A DNA stretch of 25,230 nucleotides from positions 1-25,230 of IMG/VR virus record IMGVR_UViG_3300034093_001630, one strand, 5' to 3'. Shown here in pieces: positions 2,181-25,230 of the stretch. The stretch comes from a virus. The position numbers and the translations under genes were made by a program. The number at the start of each line of letters is the position of its first letter. Within the stretch, counting starts at the first letter, position 1. A model generated the notes under the pieces. That model worked only from the letters and a program-made list of their open reading frames with translations, was not told the DNA's origin and made no database searches.

Positions 2181-2186
2181 ATAGGT

Positions 2187-2870
2187 ATGGAAAAAATATA
2201 CTTAGATGAAGATAAAAAGGTTTGGATCATTGAAAACTTTCTTACACAAGAAGAATTAGACTGGTTTAAAACTCATACAGATGACCTTAACGGATGGTAC
2301 CCAACTATGAGATCGCCATACTCAAATATTTTAAACAAATTTTTAAATATTGTTCCTAAGTACGATGATACTGGCAATATTGTTTTTCCAAACAAAGATT
2401 CAGAAGTTATTGATCTTCCCGTCTTTTCTGATCCCGACGGAATTTGGGACAGGCTTGATTCTGTCTTACCTCCAACATACAAAAGACATGCTACGCTGCA
2501 AACATTTAAGTATATGACGGATGAAGAGATTAAAGAAAATGCAAACGGATCTGCTTTAGCAGAGTATGGTGTTGCTGTAGAAGATATTGACTTCGCAATG
2601 TACTGGCATGAAGATCCTGGAGCAGAAAGCAATATAAATGCCTCATTTAGTCTTTATCTTAATGATGACTTTGATGGCGGTGAATTAGAGTTTGGAAACC
2701 TACCAATTAAGATAAAGCCAAAGTCTGGAATGTTGGCCGTAATTCCTGGTGGAGACAAGTATAAGCATAGAGTAAACAAGGTTCTTGGACCTAACTCAAG
2801 GCACACACTGTATGGAAACTCGTTTATAGACATTGAGTCTGCACCAGAAAGCACTGCAGACGACTGCTAA
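2187..2870 (+). CDS. 2OG-Fe(II) oxygenase, prolyl-4-hydroxylase type
   Basis: A 227-residue protein of the double-stranded beta-helix dioxygenase fold, which uses 2-oxoglutarate, O2 and ferrous iron to hydroxylate a substrate. Iron ligands are H141 and D143 (WHEDP) and H194 (YKHRV); R205 (SRHTLYG) would bind 2-oxoglutarate. Between them lies the family core SLYLNDDFDGGELEFG. The substrate cannot be read from sequence; protein side chains, lipids or nucleobases are all possible. A second member is at 20019-20600, with about the same motifs but little overall identity. The promoter spacing gives the 2187 start. Confidence 0.9.
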   Translation: MEKIYLDEDKKVWIIENFLTQEELDWFKTHTDDLNGWYPTMRSPYSNILNKFLNIVPKYDDTGNIVFPNKDSEVIDLPVFSDPDGIWDRLDSVLPPTYKRHATLQTFKYMTDEEIKENANGSALAEYGVAVEDIDFAMYWHEDPGAESNINASFSLYLNDDFDGGELEFGNLPIKIKPKSGMLAVIPGGDKYKHRVNKVLGPNSRHTLYGNSFIDIESAPESTADDC

Positions 2871-2875
2871 AAGAG

Positions 2876-2884
2876 TGTTATAAT
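2876..2884 (+). promoter_or_regulatory. Extended -10 promoter (TGT-TATAAT) of the first peroxidase gene
   Basis: TATAAT at 2879-2884. The start site should be near 2891, giving a leader of about 23 nt that contains a perfect AGGAGG at 2900-2905, 8 nt before the ATG. Confidence 0.65.
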
Positions 2885-2913
2885 ATCATTATAACCTTTA
2901 GGAGGTATATTAA

Positions 2914-3702
2914 ATGAAATCTATATATGACATTGAGTTGGACTCTGCCGAAGGCACTCCAAACTTTCTTCAACAATTTAAGGGCAAAGCAGTTTTGCTC
3001 ATCAACACAACCGTGGGTTGTGGTAACGCTGGCCAAATGGAGTCCATTGAGTGGATCCAAGAAGATATGGCAGGAGAAGACTTTACTGTTGTAGCAATTC
3101 CTACTAATGACTTCTGTGGCCCAAGTATTACAAAGGGTAAGTGGTCAAAAGGTATTGAATGTGGTCTTGATTCAAAGAACTATGGAAAAGATGTATATGG
3201 TGTTACATTCCCATTCTCAGAAATGATTGTTTCTAATCCAGCAGAAATTCCATTGGAAGCACCATGGCTTGGAAAAGGTCCAGGACTTAACGGAAATGGT
3301 CAACCATTTGGAGAAAGACATGAACTTTATTTAGAAATCTCTCGTCAGATTGAAGCACTTGCTGCAGACAAAATTGAAAAAGGTATTATTGAAAAAACAG
3401 ATTACGAGTCACGCTACTTAAACCAGCACGATGGTGGATTTATGATGAACGCTAACTTTGAAAAGTATCTAATTGACAAAGATGGCTATGTAGTTAAGCA
3501 CTATCCTGCTACAACTCTAAACTGGGATGTAGAGCGTACCCTTAAGGAAGATCTTGCAGCACAAGGAATCTTTGCAAAGATGGGTCCAGATAGATCTGAG
3601 TACATATTCAATGAGGAGAATGCTGTTATTCGTGACCATATTGAAAGACTTATGGCTGGCGAAAGATCACGCATTAACCCTAACCTAGTTCTATCTAACT
3701 AA
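2914..3702 (+). CDS. Divergent glutathione-peroxidase-like thioredoxin-fold protein
   Basis: A 262-residue protein whose N-terminal part follows the glutathione peroxidase pattern: an FKGKAVLLINTTVGCG strand-turn with candidate peroxidatic C36, then AIPTNDFCGP where the family has FPCNQFG, then NANFEKYLIDKDG where it has WNFEKFL. Of the usual Cys-Gln-Trp-Asn tetrad, Gln is replaced by D66 and Trp by A179, while N180 remains. It is about 100 residues longer than the canonical copy downstream, with an insert near residues 105-175 and a helical C-terminus. It may be a thiol oxidoreductase other than a peroxidase. The perfect ribosome-binding site suggests high expression. Confidence 0.82.
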   Translation: MKSIYDIELDSAEGTPNFLQQFKGKAVLLINTTVGCGNAGQMESIEWIQEDMAGEDFTVVAIPTNDFCGPSITKGKWSKGIECGLDSKNYGKDVYGVTFPFSEMIVSNPAEIPLEAPWLGKGPGLNGNGQPFGERHELYLEISRQIEALAADKIEKGIIEKTDYESRYLNQHDGGFMMNANFEKYLIDKDGYVVKHYPATTLNWDVERTLKEDLAAQGIFAKMGPDRSEYIFNEENAVIRDHIERLMAGERSRINPNLVLSN

Positions 3703-3720
3703 CAGAAAGCGAAAGCAATC

Positions 3721-4149
3721 ATGAGTATATATGATTTGTCATTTATTGACAACTCTGGCAATGAAATAAAACTGGAAAGTTTTAAGGGTAAAAACATATT
3801 AATAGTTAATACTGCAAGCCATTGTGGTTATACAAAACAATATGAGGACTTACAAAAAATACAAAGCGATTCAGTAGTTGTTATTGGTTTCCCATGTAAT
3901 CAGTTTGGTAACCAAGAGCCAGGAACAACAGAAGAAATTAAAACATTCTGTACAAATGTATACGGAATAACATTTCCTATTTCTCAAAAGGTAGAGGTCA
4001 ATGGTCCTAACGCACATCCAATCTATAACTATTTAAAGGGAAATTCTGGTGTTACAAACATTGGCTGGAACTTTGAAAAATTCTTAATATCTTCTGATGG
4101 GTCAATTACTCATTATCCTAGTTCTCATCAAGTATCAGATATTGTTTGA
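3721..4149 (+). CDS. Glutathione/thioredoxin-dependent peroxidase (GPx family)
   Basis: A 142-residue GPx/BtuE-type protein with the full catalytic set: C35 in NTASHCGYTKQ, Q61 in FPCNQFGNQEPG, and W116-N117 in WNFEKF. These enzymes reduce hydrogen peroxide and organic peroxides using thioredoxin or glutathione. The length is a little short of the usual 160 residues, trimmed at the C-terminus. It lies 18 nt after the divergent homologue, so the pair probably arose by duplication and is co-transcribed. The ribosome-binding site is weak. Its stop codon lies inside the -35 box of the next promoter. Confidence 0.92.
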   Translation: MSIYDLSFIDNSGNEIKLESFKGKNILIVNTASHCGYTKQYEDLQKIQSDSVVVIGFPCNQFGNQEPGTTEEIKTFCTNVYGITFPISQKVEVNGPNAHPIYNYLKGNSGVTNIGWNFEKFLISSDGSITHYPSSHQVSDIV

Positions 4150-4174
4150 CAACTAGTTCATCTTAAGGTATACT
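4146..4174 (+). promoter_or_regulatory. TTGACA-17-TATACT promoter, leaderless gene at 4181
   Basis: TTGACA at 4146-4151, 17-bp spacer, TATACT at 4169-4174, 6 nt to the ATG. The -35 box includes the TGA stop of the peroxidase gene. Confidence 0.8.
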
Positions 4175-4180
4175 TGAGTT

Positions 4181-4354
4181 ATGAGTATAGATGAAATGAC
4201 ACTAAGAGAAGAAATAGCAAAGGCTATAGAGTTAATCCCTATTGAGACTGCGGTAACAAATGCTTTAGGTATGCGTATTGCAGCAGCAAAGGTTGCAAGA
4301 GGAGATGGCAATTACATGAGTAGTTTATTTGAAAGACAGGTGGATTTTGAATGA
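4181..4354 (+). CDS. Small helical protein, 57 aa
   Basis: Begins MSIDEMTLREEIAKAIELIP and is predicted mostly helical. The start is fixed by the perfect upstream promoter and 6-nt spacing. It ends in an ATGA overlap with a small membrane protein. Function is unknown. Confidence 0.7.
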   Translation: MSIDEMTLREEIAKAIELIPIETAVTNALGMRIAAAKVARGDGNYMSSLFERQVDFE

Positions 4355-4440
4355 TTAGTTTATTCTTTTTGGTACCAGCATTTATTGCAGGGTACGTAGC
4401 ATGTTACTTTATTATGACATACAAGGTTAATCAAGATTAA
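4351..4440 (+). CDS. Single-span membrane mini-protein, 29 aa
   Basis: Begins MISLFFLVPAFIAGYVACYF: one hydrophobic segment followed by a short polar tail. It overlaps the upstream gene by 4 nt, and its TAA overlaps the proposed ATT start of the next gene. Confidence 0.55.
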   Translation: MISLFFLVPAFIAGYVACYFIMTYKVNQD

Positions 4441-4885
4441 GCCTACAGCACACATCTACGATGTCGATGGAACATTGGCCAATGTAGATCCTTACCTTCA
4501 CTATGTTCGTGGCTCTAATAGGGACTACGATGCCTTTCATGGTGCTTCTATAGATGCCCTGCCAAATGTAGAGGTAGTTGAAATGCTTAATAATTCTGTT
4601 AGTGACGGGCACTCTATATTAGTTGTAACATCTCGCAAAGAAAAGTATCGTGGTCTAACTTCTATGTGGCTTGCTAAAAATAATATTAGATCTCACGGCT
4701 TGTTTATGAGGGCAGATGACGACAACAGACCAGACTATGAGGCAAAGAAAGATATACTTGATAAGATTACACAACTCTGGGATGTTACACATGCAGTAGA
4801 TGATAATCCCAACGTGATAAGATTGTGGGAAGATAATAAGATTCCTACAACAAAGATAGGAACTTGGGATGGGAATAAGAATTGA
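4436..4885 (+). CDS. HAD phosphatase, polynucleotide 3'-phosphatase-like, AUU start
   Basis: A 149-residue protein. HAD motif I is HIYDVDGTLANV at about residues 7-18, motif II is VVTSR, a Lys sits in YEAKKDIL and motif IV is AVDDNPNV. The order, including the WLAKNNI and MRADDDNRPDYE segments, matches the phosphatase half of T4 polynucleotide kinase, which removes 3' phosphates from nucleic-acid ends. The first ATG/GTG/TTG codon in frame is the TTG at 4475, which lies after motif I, so the real start must be upstream. The frame is closed by TGA at 4415, and the ATT at 4436 overlaps the upstream stop (ATTAA), 9 nt after AAGG. It may serve RNA or DNA repair. Confidence 0.82.
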   Translation: MKPTAHIYDVDGTLANVDPYLHYVRGSNRDYDAFHGASIDALPNVEVVEMLNNSVSDGHSILVVTSRKEKYRGLTSMWLAKNNIRSHGLFMRADDDNRPDYEAKKDILDKITQLWDVTHAVDDNPNVIRLWEDNKIPTTKIGTWDGNKN

Positions 4886-4910
4886 CTTACACTATAGAGA
4901 ATGGTATGAT
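4882..4910 (+). promoter_or_regulatory. TTGACT-17-TATGAT promoter, leaderless gene at 4917
   Basis: TTGACT at 4882-4887 overlaps the stop of the HAD gene. A 17-bp spacer leads to TATGAT at 4905-4910, followed by 6 nt and the ATG at 4917. Confidence 0.75.
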
Positions 4911-4916
4911 TATAAT

Positions 4917-5054
4917 ATGAATAAGAGAGTTAAAAAGATTTATAAGTGTGCCTCTTGTGAAACAATGATTACGATCATAACAAGAGTACACGAACTTCCA
5001 GAATCAATTATTTGTCCATGTGATAACGTAGCAGAAAATCAGGGGTCAAAATGA
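4917..5054 (+). CDS. Small zinc-ribbon protein, 45 aa
   Basis: Begins MNKRVKKIYKCASCETMITI, with a CxxC pair at residues 11-14 and a CPC pair at 33-35, which together could bind one zinc. An in-frame start exists at 4869, but the promoter with 6-nt spacing places the start at 4917. It overlaps the next gene by 4 nt. Function is unknown. Confidence 0.7.
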   Translation: MNKRVKKIYKCASCETMITIITRVHELPESIICPCDNVAENQGSK

Positions 5055-5212
5055 AACAGTCAAACGAAAAAGTATCTCAGCACAAAATTAAGAGAGCAGA
5101 CAAAAACAAGAAGAGAGTACAAGGCAAACCACATCTTTCTAAGTTTGAACGAAAGCAAAAAAGAATAAGAGAAGAACTACTTCTTGGAGTAATAAACACA
5201 ATATCCAAATAG
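5051..5212 (+). CDS. Highly basic protein, 53 aa
   Basis: Rich in Lys and Arg (HKIKRADKNKKRVQGK), with a helical C-terminus. This composition fits nucleic-acid binding. It is coupled to the upstream gene by an ATGA overlap. No family is recognised. Confidence 0.65.
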   Translation: MKQSNEKVSQHKIKRADKNKKRVQGKPHLSKFERKQKRIREELLLGVINTISK

Positions 5213-5226
5213 GTCTGGAGTTTATC

Positions 5227-5370
5227 ATGGTAAATGAAGATGATTTAAAAAATATATCAAAAGATTTAAAGCGTTATATTATTAAACAGCATATGAAAAG
5301 ATATTACTACTCAACTGTTGCTTTTGGATCTTTTATTATCGGAATGCTTGTAGGCATATTAATCAAGTAG
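5227..5370 (+). CDS. Small C-terminally anchored membrane protein, 47 aa
   Basis: A charged helix of about 25 residues followed by one hydrophobic segment (STVAFGSFIIGMLVGILI) at the C-terminus. A TCTGGAG ribosome-binding site precedes the ATG. The tRNA-Met gene follows 6 nt later and may be co-transcribed. Confidence 0.65.
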   Translation: MVNEDDLKNISKDLKRYIIKQHMKRYYYSTVAFGSFIIGMLVGILIK

Positions 5371-5376
5371 GGTCTA

Positions 5377-5451
5377 GCACCAGTAGCCAAGTTGGTTAAG
5401 GCACCGAACTCATAATTCGGCTATTCGTAGGTTCAAGTCCTACCTGGTGTA
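5377..5451 (+). tRNA. tRNA with CAU anticodon (Met, possibly Ile2)
   Basis: The acceptor GCACCAG pairs with CTGGTGT with a G-U first pair. The anticodon stem CCGAA/TTCGG carries the loop CTCATAA, and the T arm GTAGG TTCAAGT CCTAC is canonical. The anticodon CAU means elongator Met, or Ile2 if the first base is modified to lysidine. CCA is not encoded. Confidence 0.9.
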
Positions 5452-5485
5452 CAAAGTTTTATTTTATAAAATTAAAGGAGTTTAC

Positions 5486-6136
5486 ATGAAAGAGTTTCAA
5501 AAAATAATTTGGCAAACACATCAATGGGAATATGATGAACTGCCAGAACTTTACAAGAAAACAAGTGATACCTGGAAAGTAATGAACCCAAATTGGGAAT
5601 ATAGATATATACCCAATAGCCAAATTAGAAATGAAATAGAAAAAATATCAACAAACTATAAGTTGTTGGAATGCTTTGATAGACAGCCAAACATGCTTAG
5701 CAAGGCAGATGTCTATAGAGAAGTAATGGTATATGAATATGGTGGTTTGTGGGCAGATATGGACTCTGTGTGCCTGTTTCCTGTAGATAAAATTATTGAA
5801 ACTAATACTGATAAAGAAATGATTTGTATTCCGCCAGTTTATAAGTTTGGAATGAATCCAGAAACAAACTACCAGCCAGAGTCAACGGAAGACTCGCTTA
5901 ACAGGCTTTTGTCAGGAACTGAATCTGGATACTGGATATCCAATGCAGCATTTTTAGGGAAAAAGCATAATAAGATCTCAGAAGAAATAGTCAAGGCAAT
6001 GAGCGGAGAGTGGAACTTTAGAGAAAGCAGTTTTATGGGCACTAGAGCAGAACTTTATGAAAAATATCACAAAGACATGTCTTTAGATCTTCTTTGTGCT
6101 TTTCATGATGGAAGACTTAATTTAAGAAGCCTATAA
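5486..6136 (+). CDS. GT32-type glycosyltransferase (DXD)
   Basis: A 216-residue protein starting at ATG 5486, which has AAAGGAG upstream. The N-terminus has the GT32/Och1-like pattern FQKIIWQTHQWE, then NPNWEYRYI and NMLSKADVYREVMVYEYGG, followed by the DXD metal site in LWADMDS. Such enzymes transfer a sugar from a nucleotide sugar using Mn2+. It is the first gene of a modification cluster with the SGNH hydrolase, carbamoyltransferase and second glycosyltransferase to 9687. The acceptor may be a virion protein, a host surface glycan or modified DNA. Confidence 0.85.
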   Translation: MKEFQKIIWQTHQWEYDELPELYKKTSDTWKVMNPNWEYRYIPNSQIRNEIEKISTNYKLLECFDRQPNMLSKADVYREVMVYEYGGLWADMDSVCLFPVDKIIETNTDKEMICIPPVYKFGMNPETNYQPESTEDSLNRLLSGTESGYWISNAAFLGKKHNKISEEIVKAMSGEWNFRESSFMGTRAELYEKYHKDMSLDLLCAFHDGRLNLRSL

Positions 6137-6146
6137 ACATTTTTAT

Positions 6147-6220
6147 ACATCTGTAACTCAGTTGGTTAGAGTACCTGCCTTATATGCAGAGAGCCGTAGG
6201 TTCAAGTCCTACCAGATGTA
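6147..6220 (+). tRNA. tRNA-Ile (UAU)
   Basis: The acceptor ACATCTG pairs with CAGATGT. The anticodon loop CTTATAT sits on a CCTGC/GCAGA stem whose outer pair is mismatched, and the T arm GTAGG TTCAAGT CCTAC is canonical. The UAU anticodon reads AUA directly, a codon that is frequent in this AT-rich window. Most bacteria read AUA with a modified CAU tRNA, so this is an unusual addition. Confidence 0.88.
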
Positions 6221-6222
6221 CC

Positions 6223-6297
6223 GTGGGCCTAAAGCATTAAAGTGATGCTCAGGACTTTTAATCCTGAGAAGAAGGAGCATTACCTTCTAGGCCTACT
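6223..6297 (+). tRNA. tRNA-Lys-like (UUU) with atypical arms
   Basis: It sits 2 nt after tRNA-Ile and 2 nt before tRNA-Arg. The acceptor strands GTGGGCC/GGCCTAC pair, extendable to 9 bp. The anticodon stem CAGGA/TCCTG carries the loop CTTTTAA, which gives UUU (Lys). The T loop is AGCATTA rather than TTCRANY and the D loop lacks the GG pair, so the normal D-T contact cannot form. It may be a structurally minimal tRNA, a decaying one or a tRNA-like RNA. Confidence 0.6.
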
Positions 6298-6299
6298 AA

Positions 6300-6372
6300 A
6301 CCTCTGTAGTTCAGTGGACAGAACGTTGGACTTCTAAGCCAAGCGTCGCAGGTTCGATTCCTGCCAGAGGTG
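6300..6372 (+). tRNA. tRNA-Arg (UCU)
   Basis: The acceptor ACCTCTG pairs with CAGAGGT, the D stem is GTTC/GAAC, the anticodon loop is CTTCTAA (UCU) and the T arm GCAGG TTCGATT CCTGC is canonical. It reads AGA/AGG, with AGA the common Arg codon here. The next promoter's TATAAT begins 2 nt after the tRNA. Confidence 0.92.
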
Positions 6373-6379
6373 CTATAAT
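6371..6379 (+). promoter_or_regulatory. Extended -10 promoter (TGC-TATAAT), leaderless peptide at 6386
   Basis: The hexamer at 6374-6379 directly abuts the tRNA-Arg 3' end and is 6 nt before the ATG at 6386. Confidence 0.65.
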
Positions 6380-11202: not shown

Positions 11203-12246
11203 CTACTTTGACCCTACTTCTGAGATCCTTGCCTTAGAAAACTTTAACATTGATCCAGAAATTGGAGAGTAGCCAAGGTCTTTGGCTTTCTTTCCACAAA
11301 CATCAATCATATAGTTAAAGAACTTTTTTACTGAATCGTTGGCCTCACTCTTTTGTTTTGATGCTATTCCGTATGTAAAGGTAGATATGTTGTATGCAAA
11401 TCTATTAGGATTGTTATAGTTAACCTTTACTACCCCGTTAGGTTCTGGAGCAAAATCTTTTAAAAATACTGATGCTGCACTCACAGTTGGCTGCATAAAA
11501 GATCCTGCTTTGTTTTGAATTGAAGCAGTCTTTAGTCCTCGTGCATAAGATATTTCGTTGTATCCAATAGACCCGTTAGTTGTTGTTTGAATCATTGCAA
11601 CTCCCTGCGATCCAGATGCTGATGACATAAAAGATTTATTGATGTCTCCAGGAAAGGCTGCATTAAAATTTTTGTTTCCTGACTTTGTCCAGATCTTTGG
11701 CTCAACTGCATTTAAATATGAAGTAAATACTTCTGAGGTTCCAGATCCGTCTATTCTATAAACCACTTTAATTTTTGTTGCTGGAATCTTTGGAGTTCTA
11801 CCATTGTGTATATTTTCAGAAACAATTTGTGGATCGTTCCATGTAGTTATTTGTCCTGCAAAAATTTTTGCAAGAGTATCTGTGCTCATTCTAATTGTTG
11901 AAGTGTACTTGTCTAAACGATAAATAATTCCAACTGGACCTGCCACCAATGGAACGTATACAAATTCTTTAGAGGGCTTTCCTTCGGTTGCTGAATATGG
12001 GACATCAGACATTGCAAAATCTGTAATACCATTTGCAAACATGTTCTTTCCAGCCCCAGAACCTGAAGCGGTATACACAACAGAATCTCCAGTAGTCTTA
12101 GCAAAATCAACCCTACATCTGTCTATAAAAGTAGCAGCAAATGTGGATCCAGCACCTTGAAGGTTATAAGCGTATGAGTTAGTAATAAAAAAAGCATTAG
12201 CGAATATGGCTAATGCTATTGGTAAAGCAATGAATTTAAATTTCAT
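11203..12246 (-). CDS. pstS: Phosphate ABC transporter substrate-binding protein PstS
   Basis: A 347-residue periplasmic-type binding protein. Residues 1-26 are a signal peptide (MKFKFIALPIALAIFANAFF, then NSYA). The mature protein opens with LQGAGSTFAATF, a PstS signature. It continues with the phosphate-contacting GSGAGKN, the segment VYRIDGSGTSEVFTSYL and the later SGSQGVAM and GSIGYNE. PstS captures inorganic phosphate for the PstCAB transporter, so the phage copy would raise host phosphate uptake during infection. Phage pstS is known from cyanophages. No other pst gene is seen here. Translation is predicted leaderless. Confidence 0.95.
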   Translation of the reverse strand: MKFKFIALPIALAIFANAFFITNSYAYNLQGAGSTFAATFIDRCRVDFAKTTGDSVVYTASGSGAGKNMFANGITDFAMSDVPYSATEGKPSKEFVYVPLVAGPVGIIYRLDKYTSTIRMSTDTLAKIFAGQITTWNDPQIVSENIHNGRTPKIPATKIKVVYRIDGSGTSEVFTSYLNAVEPKIWTKSGNKNFNAAFPGDINKSFMSSASGSQGVAMIQTTTNGSIGYNEISYARGLKTASIQNKAGSFMQPTVSAASVFLKDFAPEPNGVVKVNYNNPNRFAYNISTFTYGIASKQKSEANDSVKKFFNYMIDVCGKKAKDLGYSPISGSMLKFSKARISEVGSK

Positions 12247-12447: not shown

Positions 12448-12852
12448 CTATTGAATTTCAATAGTCTTTGGAAGTTTGTCTTCTGGGATCTGCTTTTCAA
12501 GTCTGACATCTAAGATACCGTCTTTGAATTCAGCCCCAATAACCTCAACAAACTCAGGAAGGGTGAAGATATCTGTAAACTTACGGGTTGCGATGCCCTT
12601 GTGTAGATACTCTGCTCCCTCTGGCAACTCAGTGTCCTGCTTTTCGCCCTTGATTGTAAGTTTGCGATTGTCTAGCGATACTGAGACATCATCCTTAGAA
12701 AAACCAGCCAAAGCAAATGACAGAATATACTCTGTATTATTTAATTTGATCTGATTATAAGGTGGATAGTTTGTTGCTGTTGTTACCTTCTGAAAATTTG
12801 AGAAGGTGTTGAAGAATGGATCATTAAAAAGATCCAGTGCTGTTTTTACCAT
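12448..12852 (-). CDS. Small heat-shock protein Hsp20 (alpha-crystallin type)
   Basis: A 134-residue protein. The N-terminal arm ALDLFNDPFFNTFSNFQ is followed by the alpha-crystallin domain at about residues 35-125: EYILSFALAGFSKDDVSVSL, RKLTIKGEK and FKDGILDVRL. The C-terminal tail has an I-x-I-type end (KTIEIQ). These ATP-independent chaperones hold unfolding proteins; phage copies are known in cyanophages. It has a good AAAGGGG site and a leader of about 51 nt, unlike the leaderless genes around it. The leader can form CCC-AAAT-GGG and may be temperature-sensitive, but this is speculation. Confidence 0.94.
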   Translation of the reverse strand: MVKTALDLFNDPFFNTFSNFQKVTTATNYPPYNQIKLNNTEYILSFALAGFSKDDVSVSLDNRKLTIKGEKQDTELPEGAEYLHKGIATRKFTDIFTLPEFVEVIGAEFKDGILDVRLEKQIPEDKLPKTIEIQ

Positions 12853-17870: not shown

Positions 17871-18100
17871 TACTTGATTCTCCTAAGCCAACGATTGTTC
17901 CAAATTCTTTCAAATATAAAATATCCAATAATTTCCCAGCCAACGTATACAAGGAATCCTATAGTTATAGGCTCTAAGTATTCATTTTCCCATTTACCAG
18001 TAATGATATATATTAAATAAGAAAATAGCAAACTAGCAACGCCTACGTGAAATGCGGTATAACTTATTGCCTTAATAGAACTTCTCTTTTTTGATTCCAT
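17870..18100 (-). CDS. Second DUF2061-like membrane protein
   Basis: A 76-residue protein with SSIKAISYTAFHVGVASLLF, a GKWENEYLEPI linker and WEIIGYFIFERIWN, the same plan as the gene at 16295 (KAI start, two helices, FHER/FERIW end). It overlaps the endolysin stop (TAATG), so it may be co-expressed with lysis genes. A role as an accessory lysis membrane protein is only a suggestion. Confidence 0.8.
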   Translation of the reverse strand: MESKKRSSIKAISYTAFHVGVASLLFSYLIYIITGKWENEYLEPITIGFLVYVGWEIIGYFIFERIWNNRWLRRIK

Positions 18101-18744
18101 TATAGGGCCACTGAGCCCTTTCCTCCGCCACCAGAAGACTTTTTTACTGCTGGCTTTGCTGATTTCTTTGCAGCATCTGCAGTTGTAGTCTTAACAGGTG
18201 TTACTGCTAACTTGTTTAGTAGTGGAGCATTCTCTTCTCCAGTATAAACTGGACGACCCCAACCAACCACAGCATTTACTAACTTCTTCTTGTTGTTCTT
18301 TACATATGCACGAGTCTTCTCTACGCACATTCCGCCATTGCGCTGGTCTCCCTTTGCAGTTCCTGAAGTGTTTCCTTCAATAACTTGAATTGTTCCGTCG
18401 CCATTGTTCTTAATACAAAGACCAACATGTGAAATACGATTTACGCCATCATCTGGGAAATCAAAATAGATCCAGTCTCCAGGAGTTGGATCATCATTAC
18501 GAGCATCTGACCAACGCTCATTCTTCTTAAACCAGTCTGCTGCTTGAACTGTTGATGCAGACTTAGGGAATGATTTTACTCCCGCAGTAAATGCACACCA
18601 AGAAACGAATGACTGGCACCATGGTTGGAAGTTAACCTTAATCCATGCACCGTACTTTGTTTCATTATCTTTAGGGCCTTCAATTGTGCCCAACTCTTTC
18701 TTTGCAACCTCAATGATTGCGTCTAGACTACCTTTTGCTGCCAT
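18100..18744 (-). CDS. CHAP-domain endolysin (peptidoglycan amidase/endopeptidase)
   Basis: A 214-residue protein. The CHAP domain covers about residues 5-165, with nucleophile C43 in PWCQSFVSWCA, H106 in ISHVGLC and E123/N125 in VIEGNT; TPGDWIYF is also typical. It would cut peptide or amide bonds in the cell wall at the end of infection. The tail (about 170-214) is rich in Ala, Lys and Gly, with KPAVKKSSGGGGKG, and may help wall binding. A perfect AAAGGAGG site is present and there is no signal peptide, so export would need a holin. Confidence 0.93.
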   Translation of the reverse strand: MAAKGSLDAIIEVAKKELGTIEGPKDNETKYGAWIKVNFQPWCQSFVSWCAFTAGVKSFPKSASTVQAADWFKKNERWSDARNDDPTPGDWIYFDFPDDGVNRISHVGLCIKNNGDGTIQVIEGNTSGTAKGDQRNGGMCVEKTRAYVKNNKKKLVNAVVGWGRPVYTGEENAPLLNKLAVTPVKTTTADAAKKSAKPAVKKSSGGGGKGSVAL

Positions 18745-18772
18745 GATATCCTCCTTTAGGAATCTTTATATA

Positions 18773-18781
18773 ATTATATCA
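18773..18781 (-). promoter_or_regulatory. Extended -10 promoter (TGA-TATAAT) of the endolysin gene
   Basis: Lies between tRNA-Asn and the endolysin. The start near 18766 leaves a 22-nt leader with a strong AAAGGAGG. Confidence 0.65.
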
Positions 18782-18783
18782 TG

Positions 18784-18856
18784 CTGCCCCACCTGGCCTC
18801 GATCCAGGGACATCCGAATTAACAGTTCGGCACTCTACCATCTGAGTTATAGGGCA
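18784..18856 (-). tRNA. tRNA-Asn (GUU)
   Basis: The acceptor TGCCCTA pairs with TGGGGCA, the D stem is ACTC/GAGT, the anticodon stem CCGAA/TTCGG carries the loop CTGTTAA, and the T stem is CCTGG/CCAGG. The T loop is ATCGAGG, a small departure from TTCRANY. The discriminator is G and CCA is not encoded. Confidence 0.9.
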
Positions 18857-18891
18857 AGGTAGGCAGTTTTAGTCATGCCCAGGACTTATAA

Positions 18892-19761
18892 TTAGTTTGA
18901 ACTATATGTTACCGTATTAATTGTAATCTTTGGAAGAGCACTCAAATACTCTTGAAAAGTTTTGAATGTGTTATTTTTTAAGTATTTTGTTGCTGAAGCC
19001 ACACTTGCTCCTGAAGACCCAGCAAGATTAAACTTAGCGTTAAGATTATTTCCCATATGGATTTCTACTGCTCCAAAAGTAGCAATATCAATACCAGGAT
19101 TAGTCTTTGATTGTCCGTTTGTTGATTTTTCAAAACTAGTTCTACTTGGTGTTAGAGCACCAACGCCAATTACTCCACTAACGCATGATGGGAATCCAAC
19201 AACATCTGCTCTTGCGTTATTTCCTGTTGCAGCAAAAACTGGAACATTCTTACTATTTAATAATGCAACTGCATTAACCGTTACATTGTTTCCTGTGCAC
19301 CAAGATGGTAGGTTAGTGTTAGATTGGCTAATTGATAAAGCATCAATGCTATATTTTTCTGCGTTCTTTGATACCCAATCAATTGCATTTACCAAAGACA
19401 AAGCATCATTGCGGTATGTGTTAGAGCCAGTGACCTCAACGTATCGAATAAATACAATCTTAACTGTAGGATCAGCCTTTAGTGCTCCCTTTACCATCCA
19501 GTCGCCATGCCAAGCACCAGATACATTTGGTTTTGGCCATACAGATAAGTTTGCAGCGCCTATACCTTCCATAAACTTACTTCCATTTGGACAAGTTGGT
19601 GTGTGTGTATTAAAGCATACTTCGTGAATAATCTGCGGGAACTGCTTTGAATCAATAGCAGTATCAATAATTGCTAGGACTTTCTGATCTTGTGCCTGTG
19701 ATGGCTGCATTGCTGTAAAAGCAAGTGCAATAGATAGTAGTGCGAGTAGTACTTTTTTCAT
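18892..19761 (-). CDS. Secreted subtilisin-like serine protease (S8)
   Basis: A 289-residue protein from ATG 19761, which has GGAGAAAACA before it; a longer frame upstream runs through the previous gene. Residues 1-23 are a signal peptide (MKKVLLALLSIALAFTAMQP, then SQA). The catalytic residues read D33 (AIIDTAID), H85 (GAWHGDW) and S250 (GSSGASVASA), with oxyanion N181 (AATGNN). Four Cys may form disulfides. It would be exported and could cut host surface proteins or process a phage surface protein. There is no propeptide domain of the usual size. Confidence 0.9.
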   Translation of the reverse strand: MKKVLLALLSIALAFTAMQPSQAQDQKVLAIIDTAIDSKQFPQIIHEVCFNTHTPTCPNGSKFMEGIGAANLSVWPKPNVSGAWHGDWMVKGALKADPTVKIVFIRYVEVTGSNTYRNDALSLVNAIDWVSKNAEKYSIDALSISQSNTNLPSWCTGNNVTVNAVALLNSKNVPVFAATGNNARADVVGFPSCVSGVIGVGALTPSRTSFEKSTNGQSKTNPGIDIATFGAVEIHMGNNLNAKFNLAGSSGASVASATKYLKNNTFKTFQEYLSALPKITINTVTYSSN

Positions 19762-19778
19762 TGTTTTCTCCTTGTTGT

Positions 19779-19997
19779 TTATTGTTTGATTTTTAAAACT
19801 ACTTGGCATGGGTCTCCGCCTTCTTCCCACTCTTGCTGTTCTTCTTCTGTCATGTAGGGATCTCCCTCATGAGTATTGCAGAATGGTTCTGTTATCCATC
19901 CCCGCTGAATTCCATTATCAAGCCAGATTTCAAACTCATCAAAGTCTGACTCTATGTTCTGAATGTCCTTTAGGATCTCTTCAAATTCTTCGTTCAT
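19779..19997 (-). CDS. Conserved acidic phage protein, 72 aa
   Basis: An acidic protein with GWITEPFCNTHEGDPYM and EEEQQEWEEGGDPCQVVLKI. The EPFCNTHxGxPM...EEGGDPC pattern is one I associate with small proteins of actinobacterial and aquatic phages. C and H residues may bind metal. The start is set by a TTGACA-17-TATACT promoter with 6-nt spacing. Function is unknown. Confidence 0.78.
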   Translation of the reverse strand: MNEEFEEILKDIQNIESDFDEFEIWLDNGIQRGWITEPFCNTHEGDPYMTEEEQQEWEEGGDPCQVVLKIKQ

Positions 19998-20003
19998 ATA
20001 TTA

Positions 20004-20032
20004 AGTATACCGAACAATCTATTCTTTGTCAA
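20004..20032 (-). promoter_or_regulatory. TTGACA-17-TATACT promoter, leaderless gene at 19997
   Basis: TTGACA at 20032-20027, 17-bp spacer, TATACT at 20009-20004, 6 nt to the ATG. It overlaps the 3' end of the oxygenase gene. Confidence 0.8.
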
Positions 20033-20600
20033 CTGGTAAAGAAAATATCCAAGCAGGAAGGCAGTATCTTGTCTTATCTCCAGAAACCATCTTTACTTCA
20101 TGCAAGTATTTGCTGCCAGTTTTAAATATCATCAGTGAGCCAGCAGGAGGTTTAGTAACAATATTAAGGTTGATGTATGAAAGTTCTCCACCTTCATAGT
20201 CATCATTTAAATAAATAATAGATGCATAATCTCTATTTAGTTTACTAGCCTCATCATATGTTGCATCTACATGTGGCACCATATTGTCTTTAGGCCTTTG
20301 CCTCAAAATCCTGCCAAACCCATAAACTTCAGACCTAGGAATTTTAGATAGTAGTTTGTCAAGTTTTCCTCTTATCTTATGAGACACTAATTCATCCTTA
20401 TACTCATAAAATTTATCCTCCCAGTCTGGATCTTGAAGGTGATTTAACTTATTCCAATCTTTATCTTCCAGCCCATTTATAATATTTAAAAATATATCAA
20501 CTTCTTCTTTTGATAAAAAATTTGGAATGCAAAATATGTTATCTTCAAGTTGTTTAACATCTGAAAACCCACAGTCATGAAGAAGTTTTATATCTATCAC
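20019..20600 (-). CDS. Second 2OG-Fe(II) oxygenase
   Basis: A 193-residue dioxygenase of the prolyl-4-hydroxylase type. H110 and D112 (VPHVDATYD) and H167 (YLHEV) bind iron; R178 (KTRYCLPAW) would bind 2-oxoglutarate. ASIIYLNDDYEGGELSYINL matches the core of the oxygenase at 2187. It starts at GTG in a TAGTG overlap with the Ntn hydrolase gene, so it is translationally coupled to it. Whether the protease-like neighbour shares its substrate is unknown. Confidence 0.9.
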   Translation of the reverse strand: MIDIKLLHDCGFSDVKQLEDNIFCIPNFLSKEEVDIFLNIINGLEDKDWNKLNHLQDPDWEDKFYEYKDELVSHKIRGKLDKLLSKIPRSEVYGFGRILRQRPKDNMVPHVDATYDEASKLNRDYASIIYLNDDYEGGELSYINLNIVTKPPAGSLMIFKTGSKYLHEVKMVSGDKTRYCLPAWIFSLPVDKE

Positions 20601-21124
20601 TATAGGCTAACCACATCAACTGGGCCCATACAAGATGGGTTAAATTTAATTGCTGCATTTACTGCCTGAACTACTCTATTCCTTGCATTTTTTTGTTTGT
20701 CTGTTGCATACATAACTCCGTAAGCATATTCTGATCCAGAGCCAATAGAAATATATGGAACTGAATACTTAGATAAAGACATATCTCCAGAACTGTGCTC
20801 ATAGATTTCTCCACGAATGCCAATAATCAAACTTAGTTCTCCGTCTTTAGAAGTATCAATCCAGAACTCGTTATAAAACTCACGAAGTTCTTTAATAAAC
20901 CTTGTGTGCATAAACTTATCTGTATCTTTAATGTTAGGTGCTGTTGGTTTAAAATTATGTCTAATTCTATCCCCGTCCATTGAGCCAGCGTATCCAATTA
21001 AATATGGGCCAGTCTTCCAAACCTTTGGTGATTCAAGTGAAAGAATAACTCCATCATCTGATGCTCCACGATCTCCAGCCATATAAACTTTTTCTTCATG
21101 GCGTAAAGCAACAATACAAGTCAT
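20600..21124 (-). CDS. Proteasome-beta/HslV-like Ntn hydrolase
   Basis: A 174-residue protein starting MTCIVALRHEEKVYMAGDRG. If Met is removed, T1, D17 and K33 fall at the exact catalytic positions of the proteasome beta subunit (Thr-Cys start, AGDRG, SPKVW). The later ISIGSGSEYAYG matches the conserved GSGS segment. The propeptide would be one residue. It is expected to form a self-compartmentalised protease; no partner ATPase is seen in the window. Roles could include degradation of host proteins or virion maturation. Expression appears to be controlled by a promoter inside a hairpin (21125-21183). Confidence 0.85.
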   Translation of the reverse strand: MTCIVALRHEEKVYMAGDRGASDDGVILSLESPKVWKTGPYLIGYAGSMDGDRIRHNFKPTAPNIKDTDKFMHTRFIKELREFYNEFWIDTSKDGELSLIIGIRGEIYEHSSGDMSLSKYSVPYISIGSGSEYAYGVMYATDKQKNARNRVVQAVNAAIKFNPSCMGPVDVVSL

Positions 21125-21183
21125 GACAAAGCCCTCTCCAGATAGGTGATACTCAAGTATACCATTACCCAGAGAGGGCTGTC
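21125..21183 (-). promoter_or_regulatory. Hairpin that masks the ribosome-binding site, with promoter inside
   Basis: In a read-through - strand RNA, GACA-GCCCTCTC (21183-21172) can pair with GAGAGGGC-TT-TGTC (21138-21125), a 12-bp stem with a 2-nt bulge, and GGTAAT with ATCACC extends it inside. The 3' arm holds GGAGAGGG, the ribosome-binding site of the gene starting at 21124. TTGACA-18-TATACT (21185-21156) starts a transcript near 21149, inside the loop, that lacks the 5' arm and leaves the site free. Confidence 0.65.
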
Positions 21184-21185
21184 AA
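21156..21185 (-). promoter_or_regulatory. TTGACA-18-TATACT promoter of the Ntn hydrolase gene
   Basis: TTGACA at 21185-21180 and TATACT at 21161-21156. The start near 21149 gives a 25-nt leader with GGAGAGGG. Confidence 0.7.
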
Positions 21186-21201
21186 CTATAACCTACAATG
21201 A

Positions 21202-21486
21202 CTAATTAGCCTTTTTGTCTACAGTCTTAAATGCATCATTTATTTCTGCGATTGTAAGTTTGCCATCGTCCAAAAAAGCCCTTGCCAGTCTTTCAACGAC
21301 TGTTGCTACGCCTAATAGACCTGCAAGCATTACTGCCTGAATTGTGTCAATTCCTACTACTGCTCCAGCACCAAGTACTGATAGGCCAGAAGCAGCAAAT
21401 ACTGCTACGATACGCATCAAGACATTTGGGAGAGCCTTCTGTGGGTGCTCCTTCTTGGGAGCCACTACTACTTTCTTAGTTGCCAT
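21202..21486 (-). CDS. Holin-like membrane protein with basic N-terminus
   Basis: A 94-residue protein. A Lys-rich start (MATKKVVVAPKKEHPQ) is followed by two hydrophobic helices (LMRIVAVFAASGLSVLGAGA and TIQAVMLAGLLGVATVVERL) and a polar tail. The size and plan fit a holin. The order with two more membrane proteins upstream suggests a lysis or envelope module. It starts in a TAATG overlap. Not certain. Confidence 0.68.
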   Translation of the reverse strand: MATKKVVVAPKKEHPQKALPNVLMRIVAVFAASGLSVLGAGAVVGIDTIQAVMLAGLLGVATVVERLARAFLDDGKLTIAEINDAFKTVDKKAN

Positions 21487-21698
21487 TATTTATCTCCTTT
21501 CCCAGCGAAATATCCGCCAATAATTCCAATTAGACCTACTAAGGCATTTTGAACTAAAGCGATAGCATCTTCATTGGTTCCATATTTTTCTCCTGTTGAA
21601 GATTGCTGCATAAGCATTGAGGCATATTCACCAACAACTACTAAGCCAATAAAACCAAGTATTCCAAGGGTAATTACCCACATTAATTTATCTTTCAT
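21486..21698 (-). CDS. Small two-helix membrane protein, 70 aa
   Basis: Helix 1 is at about residues 6-27 (MWVITLGILGFIGLVVVGEY) and helix 2 at about 48-66 (ALVGLIGIIGGYFAGKGDK). An AAAGGAGG site lies inside the last codons of the upstream gene. A holin or antiholin role is possible. Confidence 0.68.
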   Translation of the reverse strand: MKDKLMWVITLGILGFIGLVVVGEYASMLMQQSSTGEKYGTNEDAIALVQNALVGLIGIIGGYFAGKGDK

Positions 21699-21699
21699 T

Positions 21700-21906
21700 T
21701 TAGTCCTCCTTTCTTAGGGGGATTGTTATTAACCAAACCACTGTGACTGCTAATACAGCAATACCAACAATATCTCTGGCTGATCCTGTTAATGTTAACC
21801 AAGCAATAAAGAAGCCAAGGAGGGTAAATGCTTGAGCAATTATTTCCAAACCTGCATCTTTAAGCCATGTGAAGAATCCCTTCACAACCTTTTTTATTAT
21901 TTTCAT
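21700..21906 (-). CDS. Small membrane protein, 68 aa
   Basis: A basic N-terminus (MKIIKKVVKGFFTWLKDAGL) is followed by two hydrophobic segments (AQAFTLLGFFIAWLTLTG and IVGIAVLAVTVVWLITIP). The AGGAGG site is formed by the two final Arg codons of the PA14 gene. Part of the same operon as 21486 and 21202. Confidence 0.66.
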   Translation of the reverse strand: MKIIKKVVKGFFTWLKDAGLEIIAQAFTLLGFFIAWLTLTGSARDIVGIAVLAVTVVWLITIPLRKED

Positions 21907-21908
21907 TC

Positions 21909-24170
21909 TTACCTCCTCATCCCAATCATCATGTTGGCAATCTGTGAAACAATGATTACTGGAATAATGACTTCTTGGGCTTTCTCTCTCTGATCATCTG
22001 TCATATCGCTACCTAATTCAGAGAAATTAGATAGTAATTCTGCTACGTCCACCTCAAGTACTGCTCCAATTGGGTCTGCTAAAAATGCTTCTGTTTGTAC
22101 TTCTGTTACTGCATCTGCTAATGTAAATGGCATTGGTGTATCCCCTGCTGATTCTGCTCTGTCAGTAAACTCAACAAATGCTTCAGCAAGTGCTGGGTTA
22201 GACTTCATCTGCTCAGCAATCTCTGCAACTTCTGACGGCTTAATACCAAGGTCTTCTGCAACTTCTACTTTTGCTTCTTGCGTCAATGCTTTAAGAGTTT
22301 GACTTACTGCTGTGACTTGTTCAGCAGAAAGTGTAACTAATTTGTTGTCCTTGCTTGTAAGGTTAGCAATAACTCCAGATAAATCTTCTGCTGTTCCTGT
22401 ACCCTTTTCAGGAATAAGTTCTGCTAAAACCTCATCTTTAACTTCTACATCTGGCTCAGTCCACGGGTTTTCTTCAGGATCAGGTTCTGGTCCTGGTTCT
22501 GGCGAAGGTTCAGGAGCAGGCTCTTCTGTGGGTTCTTCAGTAGGCTCGGTAGTTGGTTCTGTAGTTGGTTCTGGATCTGGTGTAGGTTCTACTGTAGGTT
22601 CAGAAGTTGGCTCCTCTGTAGGTTCCTCCGTAGGTTCCTCTGTAGGCTTTGGGGATGGCTTTGGCGTAGGAGTAGGCTTTGTTTCCTCTGTAGGCTTTGG
22701 AGTTGGAGTTGGAGTTGGCTCTTCTGTTGGTTCAGGGCTAGGTTCCTCTGTAGGCTCTTCTGTAGGCTCTTCAGTTGGTTCATCTGTAGGCTCTGGTGAA
22801 GGTTCTGGGCTTGGTTCTTCAGTTGGTTCTTCAGTTGGCTCTGAAGAAGGTTCTGGAGTTGGTTCTGGAGTAGGCTGATTGGCTGCAGCGTTGGCTGCTG
22901 CTTGAGCAATGGCAGACTGAATTTCTCTTTGTAGTTGCTCATCATAGTAACGCCATGCATCATCAATAGCATTATTTAAATCAGTTATTGATTGATTATA
23001 TATTTGTATTTTGCTATTCTTTAACTCTAAAGCATCTTCTGTATCTGCAACGGCATCAATATGTTCCTGTGTCTTAGTTTGCAAAACCTGATTCATTGAT
23101 GACAGTGTTGCATTCTCAGAGTTGTATACGCTTAGTTTGTCATTGTATACCGCTAACTTGTTATTATAATTTGTTTGTGCTATATCCTTTGCTGCAAGTG
23201 CTGCGTCATATGCATCTATCTGTTCCTGTGTTGGTCCTGAGCCAGAAGAAAATGTATTAAGATTACAACTAAAGTTTTGTCCCCATACTCGTGGATCTCC
23301 AGCATAGTCGCATCCTGCTCCAGTCCAGCCTCCAGGAATTGCCCATCCAAGATGATAAGATCCTGGGCCTCCTCCGTTATACCACCAAATCTCTACACTC
23401 AATGTTTTGTCTTCGCTAACATCATATACTGGTGAATAATCGCTCCAAGTAGTTCCTTGCTCTATCCATTGATCTATTGCAAGATTTCCGTCTACATACA
23501 TTCTAAATCCATCATCTGTATATCCTGCAAAATATGTTGATGTGAACCAAGACGGTACTGTTATTTGACCAGTGAACTTAACTATAAAGTTTTCGTATCT
23601 GTTACCACAAACTGGTAGTTGCATGTGGCTTGAGTTCCAGGTGCCAGAACAAAGCACAGATCCTGGGGTAGCAACATTACCTTGTCTAACAAGAGTATAA
23701 ACAGTGTATGCCAAACCTGTTCCTCCAGCAGCCTGCATATTAGACTGTGTGGTTTGAAGATTAAGGTTGGCTATATTAAGTGCATCCTGTGCATCATTCT
23801 TGTCTTGAAAGGCATTGTTCCTATTCTCAAGAGCAAGGGCTACTGTTGCTGTCTGTCCATCCACATTTGACTGAGCAAGGTTCTTTGCTTCTAATGCTGT
23901 GGCTTCTGACTCTACTGCATCATCATAGGAATCATTGGCATCGTCTCTAAGTTCCATCGCATTTTTGGCATAGGTAAACTTATTTTCTGCTATGTCTATA
24001 AGATCTATAAGGTCATCTTGGTAGCCAAGGTCATCTACGCTATCGTTAAGTTCCTGTATTTCTTGGGCTGCAACTGTGAGTGGATCATCAGAGTGTGCAC
24101 CTTCTGGGGAGGTAATAAGCCAGCCAAACGCTAAAAGTGTGGCTGATAATATGCGTATTAGTCTTTTAAT
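21909..24170 (-). CDS. Exported PA14-domain protein with coiled coils and Pro-Glu stalk, AUU start
   Basis: A 753-residue protein from ATT 24170. Residues 1-26 look like a signal peptide (KRLIRILSATLLAFGWLI, then SPEGAHS), which lies upstream of the first ATG in frame (23957). Coiled coils follow to about residue 165. A PA14 domain lies at about 190-300 (YFAGYTDDGFRMYVDGNLAI, then WWYNGGGPGSYHLGW), then a second coiled coil. A repeat of PEPTEEPT-like units covers about 433-572, then a helical domain ending in a hydrophobic segment. PA14 domains usually bind sugars. It may be an adhesin or fibre on the virion or on the infected cell. Confidence 0.85.
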   Translation of the reverse strand: MKRLIRILSATLLAFGWLITSPEGAHSDDPLTVAAQEIQELNDSVDDLGYQDDLIDLIDIAENKFTYAKNAMELRDDANDSYDDAVESEATALEAKNLAQSNVDGQTATVALALENRNNAFQDKNDAQDALNIANLNLQTTQSNMQAAGGTGLAYTVYTLVRQGNVATPGSVLCSGTWNSSHMQLPVCGNRYENFIVKFTGQITVPSWFTSTYFAGYTDDGFRMYVDGNLAIDQWIEQGTTWSDYSPVYDVSEDKTLSVEIWWYNGGGPGSYHLGWAIPGGWTGAGCDYAGDPRVWGQNFSCNLNTFSSGSGPTQEQIDAYDAALAAKDIAQTNYNNKLAVYNDKLSVYNSENATLSSMNQVLQTKTQEHIDAVADTEDALELKNSKIQIYNQSITDLNNAIDDAWRYYDEQLQREIQSAIAQAAANAAANQPTPEPTPEPSSEPTEEPTEEPSPEPSPEPTDEPTEEPTEEPTEEPSPEPTEEPTPTPTPKPTEETKPTPTPKPSPKPTEEPTEEPTEEPTSEPTVEPTPDPEPTTEPTTEPTEEPTEEPAPEPSPEPGPEPDPEENPWTEPDVEVKDEVLAELIPEKGTGTAEDLSGVIANLTSKDNKLVTLSAEQVTAVSQTLKALTQEAKVEVAEDLGIKPSEVAEIAEQMKSNPALAEAFVEFTDRAESAGDTPMPFTLADAVTEVQTEAFLADPIGAVLEVDVAELLSNFSELGSDMTDDQREKAQEVIIPVIIVSQIANMMIGMRR
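22455..22870 (-). repeat. Degenerate 6/12-bp repeat encoding Pro-Glu/Thr units
   Basis: Short repeats of the form GAAGAACCTACA or GAACCTACTCCA, read on the - strand, encode EEPT, EPSPEP and PTPTP units. Variation between units indicates age or selection. The antisense frame is long and Gly-Ser-rich but is not a gene. Confidence 0.85.
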
Positions 24171-24209
24171 TTACCTTTCCCCCTTGCAGACGAGATGTCT
24201 GATAGGGTT

Positions 24210-24218
24210 ATTATATCA
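24210..24218 (-). promoter_or_regulatory. Extended -10 promoter (TGA-TATAAT) of the PA14 operon
   Basis: TATAAT at 24215-24210. The start near 24203 gives a 33-nt leader with a CAGAC/GTCTG hairpin and then AGGGGG, 8 nt before the ATT. Confidence 0.65.
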
Positions 24219-24229
24219 TTTTATTGCAC

Positions 24230-24262
24230 AAAAAAGGGGCTACCATTATTGGCAACCCCTTT
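24230..24262 (-). terminator. Rho-independent terminator of the coiled-coil gene
   Basis: On the - strand AAAGGGG pairs with CCCCTTT and is followed by a T run of six. It separates the Ig/coiled-coil gene from the PA14 operon promoter. Confidence 0.88.
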
Positions 24263-24275
24263 AGTGTTGGATTAA

Positions 24276-25230
24276 TTACTTAATCAGAGCGACCTTTGCT
24301 CGTGGATTCTTCTTGTTCCACTGAGTAGCCAACTTGTTAAATGCAGCCTTCATAGACTTAATCGCTGCAGCATTATCTGCAGTCAACTTAGCAATCTGTG
24401 CATCCTTAGCAAGAAGAGCAGCATCTGATGCAGTCTTTGCATCTGCAAGTGCCTTTGCACCCGCCACCTTCTCTGTTGCTACAGCATCTGCAACTGCCTT
24501 ATCTGCAGCAGCCTTTGCATCTGCAATTGCCTTATCTGATGTAGCCTTTAGATCAGCAAGTGCCTTAGCATGTGAAGCCTTTAGTTCTGCAAGTTCTGCA
24601 GTAACTGCTGCAAGTGAAGCATTCGCTGCTTCCAAGTCCAACTTGAACTGTGCAAGAATCTTATCTGCAGCAACGCCTGCTTCTGCAAGTGCCTTTAGAG
24701 CACTTTCTTCTGCCTTCTTTGCATCAGTTGCTTCTGCTGTTGCCTTTACTAGGTCAGCATTAGCCTTTGCTAGGCTTGCTGCTAGTTCAGACTTTGCCTT
24801 AACCTCTGCCTCTAGTTGAGCCTTTGTTGAAGCGTGTGCAGCCTTTTCAGCAGCAAGTGCAGCCTTTTCAGCAGCAAGTGCAGCCTTTTCAGCAGCAAGT
24901 TCTGATACTAGATCACGAACTGAAATCTCTGCGAATGGAGCAAGTGTTGGAGCAGTCAAACCAACTACTGCTGCTGCAACTGCATCTGATGATGTTGTTG
25001 GTGCAAAAGTAATTAGTGAGCGTGTTCCTGTTGTTGGAAGAGTAGCCTTAAAGGTTGCTGTTCCAAAATCTGTTAGTGTAGCACCAGTTGTTACTGTTGC
25101 TGTATCCATAACTGCTGTTGAAGCAAATACAGTTGCTGTAATTGACTTACCAGATACCTTGTTTCCAAATGCATCTGTTGCAGTTACAACGATGTCTTGC
25201 TTTGTACCAGCAGCACCTGTTGTAGGTGCA
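24276..25230 (-). CDS. Ig-like plus Ala-rich coiled-coil protein, 5' end outside window
   Basis: At least 317 residues are visible and the frame runs off the right edge. The first part (QDIVVTATDAFGNKVSGKSI) looks like a bacterial Ig-like domain of the Big_1 type, followed by a Ser/Thr-rich strand region. From about 24920 down to 24350 lies a long Ala-Lys-Glu coiled coil (LAAEKAALAAEKAAH and related), and the end is basic (NKLATQWNKKNPRAK). A strong terminator follows. It could be a fibre or surface protein; any signal peptide would be outside the window. Confidence 0.8.
   Translation of the reverse strand, partial: APTTGAAGTKQDIVVTATDAFGNKVSGKSITATVFASTAVMDTATVTTGATLTDFGTATFKATLPTTGTRSLITFAPTTSSDAVAAAVVGLTAPTLAPFAEISVRDLVSELAAEKAALAAEKAALAAEKAAHASTKAQLEAEVKAKSELAASLAKANADLVKATAEATDAKKAEESALKALAEAGVAADKILAQFKLDLEAANASLAAVTAELAELKASHAKALADLKATSDKAIADAKAAADKAVADAVATEKVAGAKALADAKTASDAALLAKDAQIAKLTADNAAAIKSMKAAFNKLATQWNKKNPRAKVALIK
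24838..24900 (-). repeat. Three perfect 21-bp tandem repeats
   Basis: Units at 24838-24858, 24859-24879 and 24880-24900 are identical and encode a 7-residue heptad (LAAEKAA). Perfect identity points to recent expansion and a possible length-variable site. Confidence 0.9.

Follow-up and report, generated by a model that had tools for sequence, protein, structure and literature searches.

The promoter of an HslV/proteasome-like peptidase gene in this uncultured phage is built into a predicted RNA hairpin that would mask the Shine-Dalgarno (SD) sequence of the same gene. Such an arrangement had been suggested in a first-pass annotation of the window, that is, the whole stretch of 25,230 nucleotides that makes up positions 1 to 25,230 of the IMG/VR record IMGVR_UViG_3300034093_001630, and the observation is confirmed here. 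The element, TTGACAGCCCTCTCTGGGTAATGGTATACTTGAGTATCACCTATCTGGAGAGGGCTTTGTCATG, spans 64 nt of the minus strand, from 21185 to 21122 (Table 1), and quite probably combines a promoter with a translational insulator that acts in cis. Under this model, a polymerase arriving from the upstream holin-like (lysis/late) genes would copy both arms of the hairpin, the 5' arm, an anti-SD, would fold onto the SD and the start codon of the next gene, and ribosome binding would be blocked; the untranslated read-through RNA, the existence of which we infer, may also be shortened by Rho-type polarity. A polymerase starting at the built-in sigma-70-like promoter would begin past the 5' arm and thus yield an open ribosome-binding site that can be translated. 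Because the read-through RNA would be masked and the gene's own RNA open, the first accessory gene, which in this phage encodes the HslV-like protease, would depend on its own promoter for the synthesis of its product; the strength of this effect is estimated from predicted folding energies, and its timing from the types of promoter and genes involved.

In the window, the element (21184-21124, minus strand) is predicted to form an outer stem of 19 pairs and an inner one of 7, at -32.6 kcal/mol, with a stability z-score of -6.6 and none of 200 shuffled sequences equally stable. The burial of the SD and of the bases beside the AUG that had been noticed originally is borne out by this fold, but the 12-bp stem ascribed to the hairpin is an underestimate. 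The protease promoter, with its 18-nt spacer, matches 11 of the 12 sigma-70 consensus bases and is among the two best matches in the region 18000-25230. The 5' arm includes the anti-SD GCCCUCUC and lies mostly within the -35/-10 spacer, overlapping the -35 hexamer; hence, the notion of a promoter placed between the arms fits the -10 but not the -35 and most of the spacer, which themselves constitute the 5' arm. As had been anticipated, the putative transcription start, placed from promoter geometry, falls past the entire arm, so that the promoter's own RNA would carry a leader of about 25 nt that is devoid of the 5' arm and folds more weakly than its own shuffles. There is no exact GAGAGGGC site elsewhere in the window, only the two arms, and the terminator scan detected no terminator-like site on the minus strand in the interval that separates the element from the upstream gene.

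The encoded protease starts with MTCIVAL..., that is, with a threonine directly after the start methionine. The name of the 94-aa holin-like gene upstream is tentative because the PHROG holin match is weak (E = 0.0018) and the match to a nuclease-labelled family is stronger (E = 3e-25). The stop codon of this gene is located 16 nt ahead of the -35, and typically 16-17 nt in relatives; given this gap, a terminating ribosome is not expected to melt the stem in most of the relatives.

Table 1. Features of the masked promoter and the adjacent genes in the window
Feature	Position	Strand	Remarks
HslV/proteasome-like peptidase gene, masked	20600..21124	-	174 aa; Pfam Proteasome, PHROG 'peptidase HslV family'
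Last holin-like gene upstream, presumed source of read-through	21202..21486	-	94 aa
-35 hexamer TTGACA	21180..21185	-	promoter scan; conserved in relatives
-10 hexamer TATACT, TGG ahead (extended -10)	21156..21161	-	in inner helix and loop
Outer stem, 5' arm UGACAGCCCUCUCUGGGUA	21166..21184	-	fold and covariation
Outer stem, 3' arm UAUCUGGAGAGGGCUUUGUCA	21124..21144	-	fold and covariation; last base is the A of the start codon
Shine-Dalgarno sequence GGAGAGGG	21132..21139	-	fully paired in read-through RNA (fold)
Start codon ATG of the HslV/proteasome-like gene	21124-21122	-	
Putative transcription start, ~7 nt past the -10	21149	-	from promoter geometry

Folding both transcripts computationally, as had been advised, gives an SD that is buried in the read-through RNA and nearly open in the gene's own RNA: the computed cost of opening is 19.7 kcal/mol in the former and 2.8 kcal/mol in the latter, keeping in mind that these folding energies leave aside co-transcriptional kinetics and ribosomes. 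Across 161 relatives that possess the arm, the computed medians are 14.7 and 3.1 kcal/mol, respectively, a median gap of about 12 kcal/mol; in 15 relatives without the arm, the two costs differ little or not at all. In a 119-kb relative, an SD can be recognised in 83 genes, and that of the protease is the most sequestered among them, at 16.4 kcal/mol, with the next-highest value at 12.1, the 90th percentile at 5.0 and the median at 2.5 kcal/mol. Among the four strong promoters scored in that genome, the protease promoter is the only masked one (16.8 kcal/mol in read-through RNA, vs 2.6-3.5 for the other three).

Can the pairing be traced through the evolution of this phage group? Relatives were collected by scanning viral contigs with the protease, which yielded 332 encoding stretches, the best 80 of which were taken, and two later scans added more. 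In the regions upstream of the protease, the promoter is nearly identical base for base, with a near-invariant -10 hexamer among 64 aligned relatives, and the arms fall into classes. Written as 5' arm/3' arm, these are GCCCTCTC/GAGAGGGC, CCCCTCC/GGGAGGGG and GCCCCTTC/G(A/G)AGGGGC, joined through the later scans by AACCCCTCTAG/CTAGAGGGGTT (L411), CCCCTTCTAGG/CCTAGAAGGGG (L395) and TTCCCCTACTTAGA/..GAGTAGGGGAA (L124); the arms of L124 and L395 are unrelated in sequence to those of the other classes. Because a MAFFT alignment of all variants put arms of different classes in the wrong places, pairs were counted on the alignment to a covariance model, which was built on 22 ungapped sequences and returned 81 strong matches (68 distinct rows). 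In these 81 matches, standard pairs occupy 91.6% of the pair cells, vs 37-50% after a shift of the partner by 1-3 columns, and double-sided changes are found in 10 pairs (shuffle mean 4.9) and 43 cells (shuffle mean 7.7). A comparison of related phages for compensating changes had been proposed at the outset, with varying arms that fail to keep their pairing as the refuting outcome, and this outcome did not occur: the arms vary, and pairing is kept, with double changes at 10 pairs and all five covariation measures above every one of the 500 shuffles (0/500). The covariance-model alignment leans towards the structure to which it was fitted, so an alignment-free duplex test was added, in which the native arm duplexes average -22.9 kcal/mol vs -20.4 (sd 0.29) for arms exchanged at random among the phages, a difference that was reached in 0 of 20000 permutations; relatedness among the phages is not wholly removed by the slide and shuffle controls or by this permutation. 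The support that the six distinct arm pairs appear to lend is independent of such fine statistics.

The two strands of the element are not equivalent. The sense strand is more stable than the complement in all 66 hairpins compared (mean -28.9 vs -22.7), an excess that is due to the use of G-U pairs, about 3.3 per hairpin. Together, the G-U pairs and the unanimous strand bias indicate RNA structure rather than DNA symmetry.

The element was introduced by the first-pass annotation as a device of the protease gene, and in this respect the original picture has to be revised, because other first genes are masked at the same junction. The covariance-model search finds one strong forward copy in 22 of the 24 records of 50-119 kb, and the remaining two, L124 and L141, show a weak, degenerate match at an unmasked protease site. 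At the 80 loci with the exact 5' half, the next gene is the protease in 75 cases, a methyltransferase-like gene in three, another gene in one, and the contig edge follows in one. Altogether, five first genes are masked, namely the protease, two kinds of methyltransferase-like genes, a TP_methylase and a fifth gene, always behind the holin-like genes. In L028, L061 and L094, a methyltransferase-like gene sits between the holin-like genes and the protease, and the full element precedes this gene; the 5' arm has disappeared from the protease site of these phages, where the -10 region is still present. (The methyltransferase label is a reading of the sequence by eye, the first genes of these three loci and of L124 having no match in Pfam.) In L274, the TP_methylase gene comes first and is masked, and the protease overlaps its end, without a promoter of its own. 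Two other genes intervene in L124, the first of which (methyltransferase-like) is preceded by a hairpin of the same plan with unrelated arms, whereas in L395 the fifth gene is first and is masked by yet another arm pair. The L124 hairpin (L124:1535-1582) begins a few bases past the upstream stop codon, and there a terminating ribosome might open the arm. For these inserted first genes, the cost of opening the SD is 13.0-19.8 kcal/mol in read-through RNA, up from 0.2-8.6.

Counted by distinct haplotype, the protease is masked in 112 of 124 cases when it lies directly behind the holin-like genes and in none of seven with an intervening gene; the seven consist of six tabulated haplotypes and L124, and the Fisher p of 3e-6 refers to the six, with rows that are not independent. 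The spacer G+C content is 65% in masked and 39% in unmasked promoters and, given this difference and the loss of the arm from protease copies, it appears that the spacer gained or lost the anti-SD within a promoter that persisted. All in all, the comparison of loci supports the view that the device belongs to the genomic junction rather than to the protease. The accessory genes in the group to which the window belongs lie between the holin-like and endolysin genes. The gene order of the window at 18100-21486 differs from that of L433-L481, distant relatives in which the order is often holin-like gene, endolysin, protease.

The mask is not universal, either. In 12 haplotypes (L403, L407, L083, L406, L418, L421, L425, L429, L432, L416, L055 and L089), the promoter lies directly behind the holin-like genes and the SD is unmasked or weakly masked; most, albeit not all, of these belong to two neighbouring parts of the protease tree. 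L430 has an unmasked site ahead of a methyltransferase-like first gene, and in the distant relatives, where the protease follows the endolysin, the same promoter type and the -10 are kept without a mask; neither promoter nor hairpin was found at the endolysin gene directly behind the holin-like gene. Given these cases, the mask is not essential everywhere, and thus appears to be a trait that one large group maintains but can do without.

Could the hairpin serve some other purpose, with the occlusion of the SD being incidental? One candidate is a transcription terminator, or a stem stabilising the 3' end of the holin-like operon, with the overlap with the SD reflecting mere thrift. This explanation, which we consider unlikely, would account for the location of the element, always at the end of the holin-like operon whatever gene follows, and for the TTTT that comes after some of its versions. 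There is, however, no conserved U-tract past the 3' arm, where we find CUUUGUC, CUUCAUG, CCUACAAUUUUG and UUAGUC, and none in L124 (GAAGAUAUG); the element is not picked by the terminator scan; all masked versions have as their 3' arm an SD that is suitably spaced from the start codon; and the hairpin always encloses the -10, for which termination has no need. The missing U-tract leads us to reject termination as the main role, although the element could add some termination besides.

Two further explanations have, in our estimation, very little chance of being correct. One takes the inverted repeat to be a DNA operator, bound by a dimeric protein that represses the promoter, in keeping with the dyad symmetry that covers the -35, the spacer and the -10, and with the inner GGTATA...TATACC repeat that is retained in some versions without arms. 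Yet the arms vary among relatives, differing in L411 and at the extreme, in L124 and L395, being unrelated, which is unlike the site of one protein; their spacing varies and bulges are present; the element is a single copy per record; and the protease promoter is without the arm once another gene intervenes. Together with the G-U pairs and the 66/66 strand bias described above, the arm turnover leads us to reject the operator. The other, which seems equally improbable, is an RNA processing or decay site (e.g. for RNase III) that parts the lysis mRNA from the accessory mRNA. A long, near-perfect stem present in the read-through RNA only is what such a site would look like, but it would be left unexplained why one arm coincides with the SD and start codon in each of six different arm sequences, and a cut within the 3' arm would take the SD away too; processing as an additional outcome beside masking is compatible with the data. 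A genome-wide repeat family was also considered and rejected, with at most one forward copy per record in the 24 long records, and so was autoregulation specific to the protease, given that the same element fronts other genes.

Several other features of the window deserve mention. A second promoter, TTGACA-17-TATACT (20032-19997, minus strand), stops 6 nt short of the start codon (ATG) of an ORF of 72 aa, the mRNA of which may therefore be leaderless. Promoters of similar type are scattered in the related 119-kb genome, several of them leaderless, and three with the exact 6-nt spacing are found in the 119-kb G012 at contig positions 70508, 64661 and 60910 on the minus strand. A tRNA-Asn gene (18783-18856, minus strand) lies just upstream of the endolysin gene, which starts at 18744, and TGATATAAT near the 3' end of the tRNA gene may represent a promoter created there. 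Five more tRNA genes (Glu, Met, Ile-TAT, Lys and Arg-TCT) are located at 2092-6373 on the plus strand, with glycosyltransferase-like and redox-like genes, so labelled by eye, among them. The minus-strand genes at 11203-12246 and 12448-12852 encode, again judging by eye, phosphate-binding PstS-like and Hsp20 small heat-shock-like proteins, and are likely host-derived accessory genes.

The closest parallel to the masked promoter is found in phage T4, where the longer early RNAs of gene e (and also of soc, 49 and I-TevI) hide the ribosome-binding site, and RNAs from the late promoters of gene e do not include the 5' strand, an arrangement reported to make a 100-fold difference (PMC3014915, citing McPheeters et al. 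1986). The likeness lies in an SD and start codon enclosed in a hairpin on read-through RNA and in an own-promoter RNA without the 5' strand, which here are computed and inferred. The predicted energy gap is consistent with a protein-yield difference as large as that in T4, about 100-fold. The T4 gene has the late promoter TATAAATA, whereas the element described here has TTGACA-18-TATACT and no TATAAATA; furthermore, unlike in T4, the read-through would come from holin-like, presumably late, genes, the anti-SD is largely in the -35/-10 spacer, and the device is fixed at one junction while the gene behind it changes. We claim no homology of sequence or genes with gene e. Thus, the T4-like masking originally put forward fares well with regard to geometry, the pairing kept, the median gap of some 12 kcal/mol and the masking bound to a junction, but not with regard to timing, with silent early read-through and a late promoter of the gene's own in T4. 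Here, with a sigma-70-like promoter and upstream genes of late appearance, the timing may be the reverse. A more comprehensive scenario, which we put forward tentatively and would rate somewhat below an even bet, is that an anti-SD encoded in the spacer of a host-type promoter shields any accessory gene at the lysis junction from late read-through while expression from its own promoter is kept, that on two or more occasions the arms arose anew or were completely replaced within an unchanged architecture, and that the timing is the reverse of that in T4.

Other systems share parts of this design. In mobE, a homing endonuclease gene of phage Aeh1, RNA structure at the ribosome-binding site lowers translation initiation of an inserted gene (PMC3014915). 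The gene, the phage group and the sequence are different here, where accessory genes at the boundary of the lysis genes are involved. In the transposons IS10 and IS50, the ribosome-binding site of the transposase gene is covered by an upstream arm in transcripts that enter from outside, and the transcript from the internal promoter escapes. The outer arm of those elements belongs to the transposon end, whereas here the arm is the promoter spacer, and no transposase match was obtained among the searched proteins beside the element. Classical phage morons are accessory genes with their own promoter that are insulated by a terminator. The accessory genes discussed here (protease, 2OG oxygenase, methyltransferase-like) resemble them in having a host-type promoter among lysis genes, but would be insulated on their 5' side at the level of translation. 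Finally, the SAS of Cluster K mycobacteriophages is a fixed 13-bp sequence, GGGATAGGAGCCC, in 11-19 copies per genome, and ESAS inverted repeats lie upstream of SAS, with little support found by the authors for an RNA hairpin (PMC3203893, PMC12699233). These, too, are inverted repeats just ahead of the start codons of different genes, overlapping or beside the SD; here, unlike in SAS/ESAS, the element is a single copy, its 3' arm constitutes the SD, the pairing covaries, and the SD region is CUGGAGAGGGC rather than the 13-bp SAS sequence.

A literature search of partial coverage found no described case of such masking in such phages. Masking of the ribosome-binding site on read-through RNA is known in itself, from work on a small number of T4 genes and on transposons. 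The present phage family, uncultured and derived from metagenomes, appears to follow the same logic in dozens of natural variants, with compensating changes, gene insertions and losses, so that one can ask when a phage needs an accessory gene to be insulated from the lysis operon. Moreover, the combination of a promoter with an anti-SD in its spacer is a compact natural part that is testable in a simple reporter.
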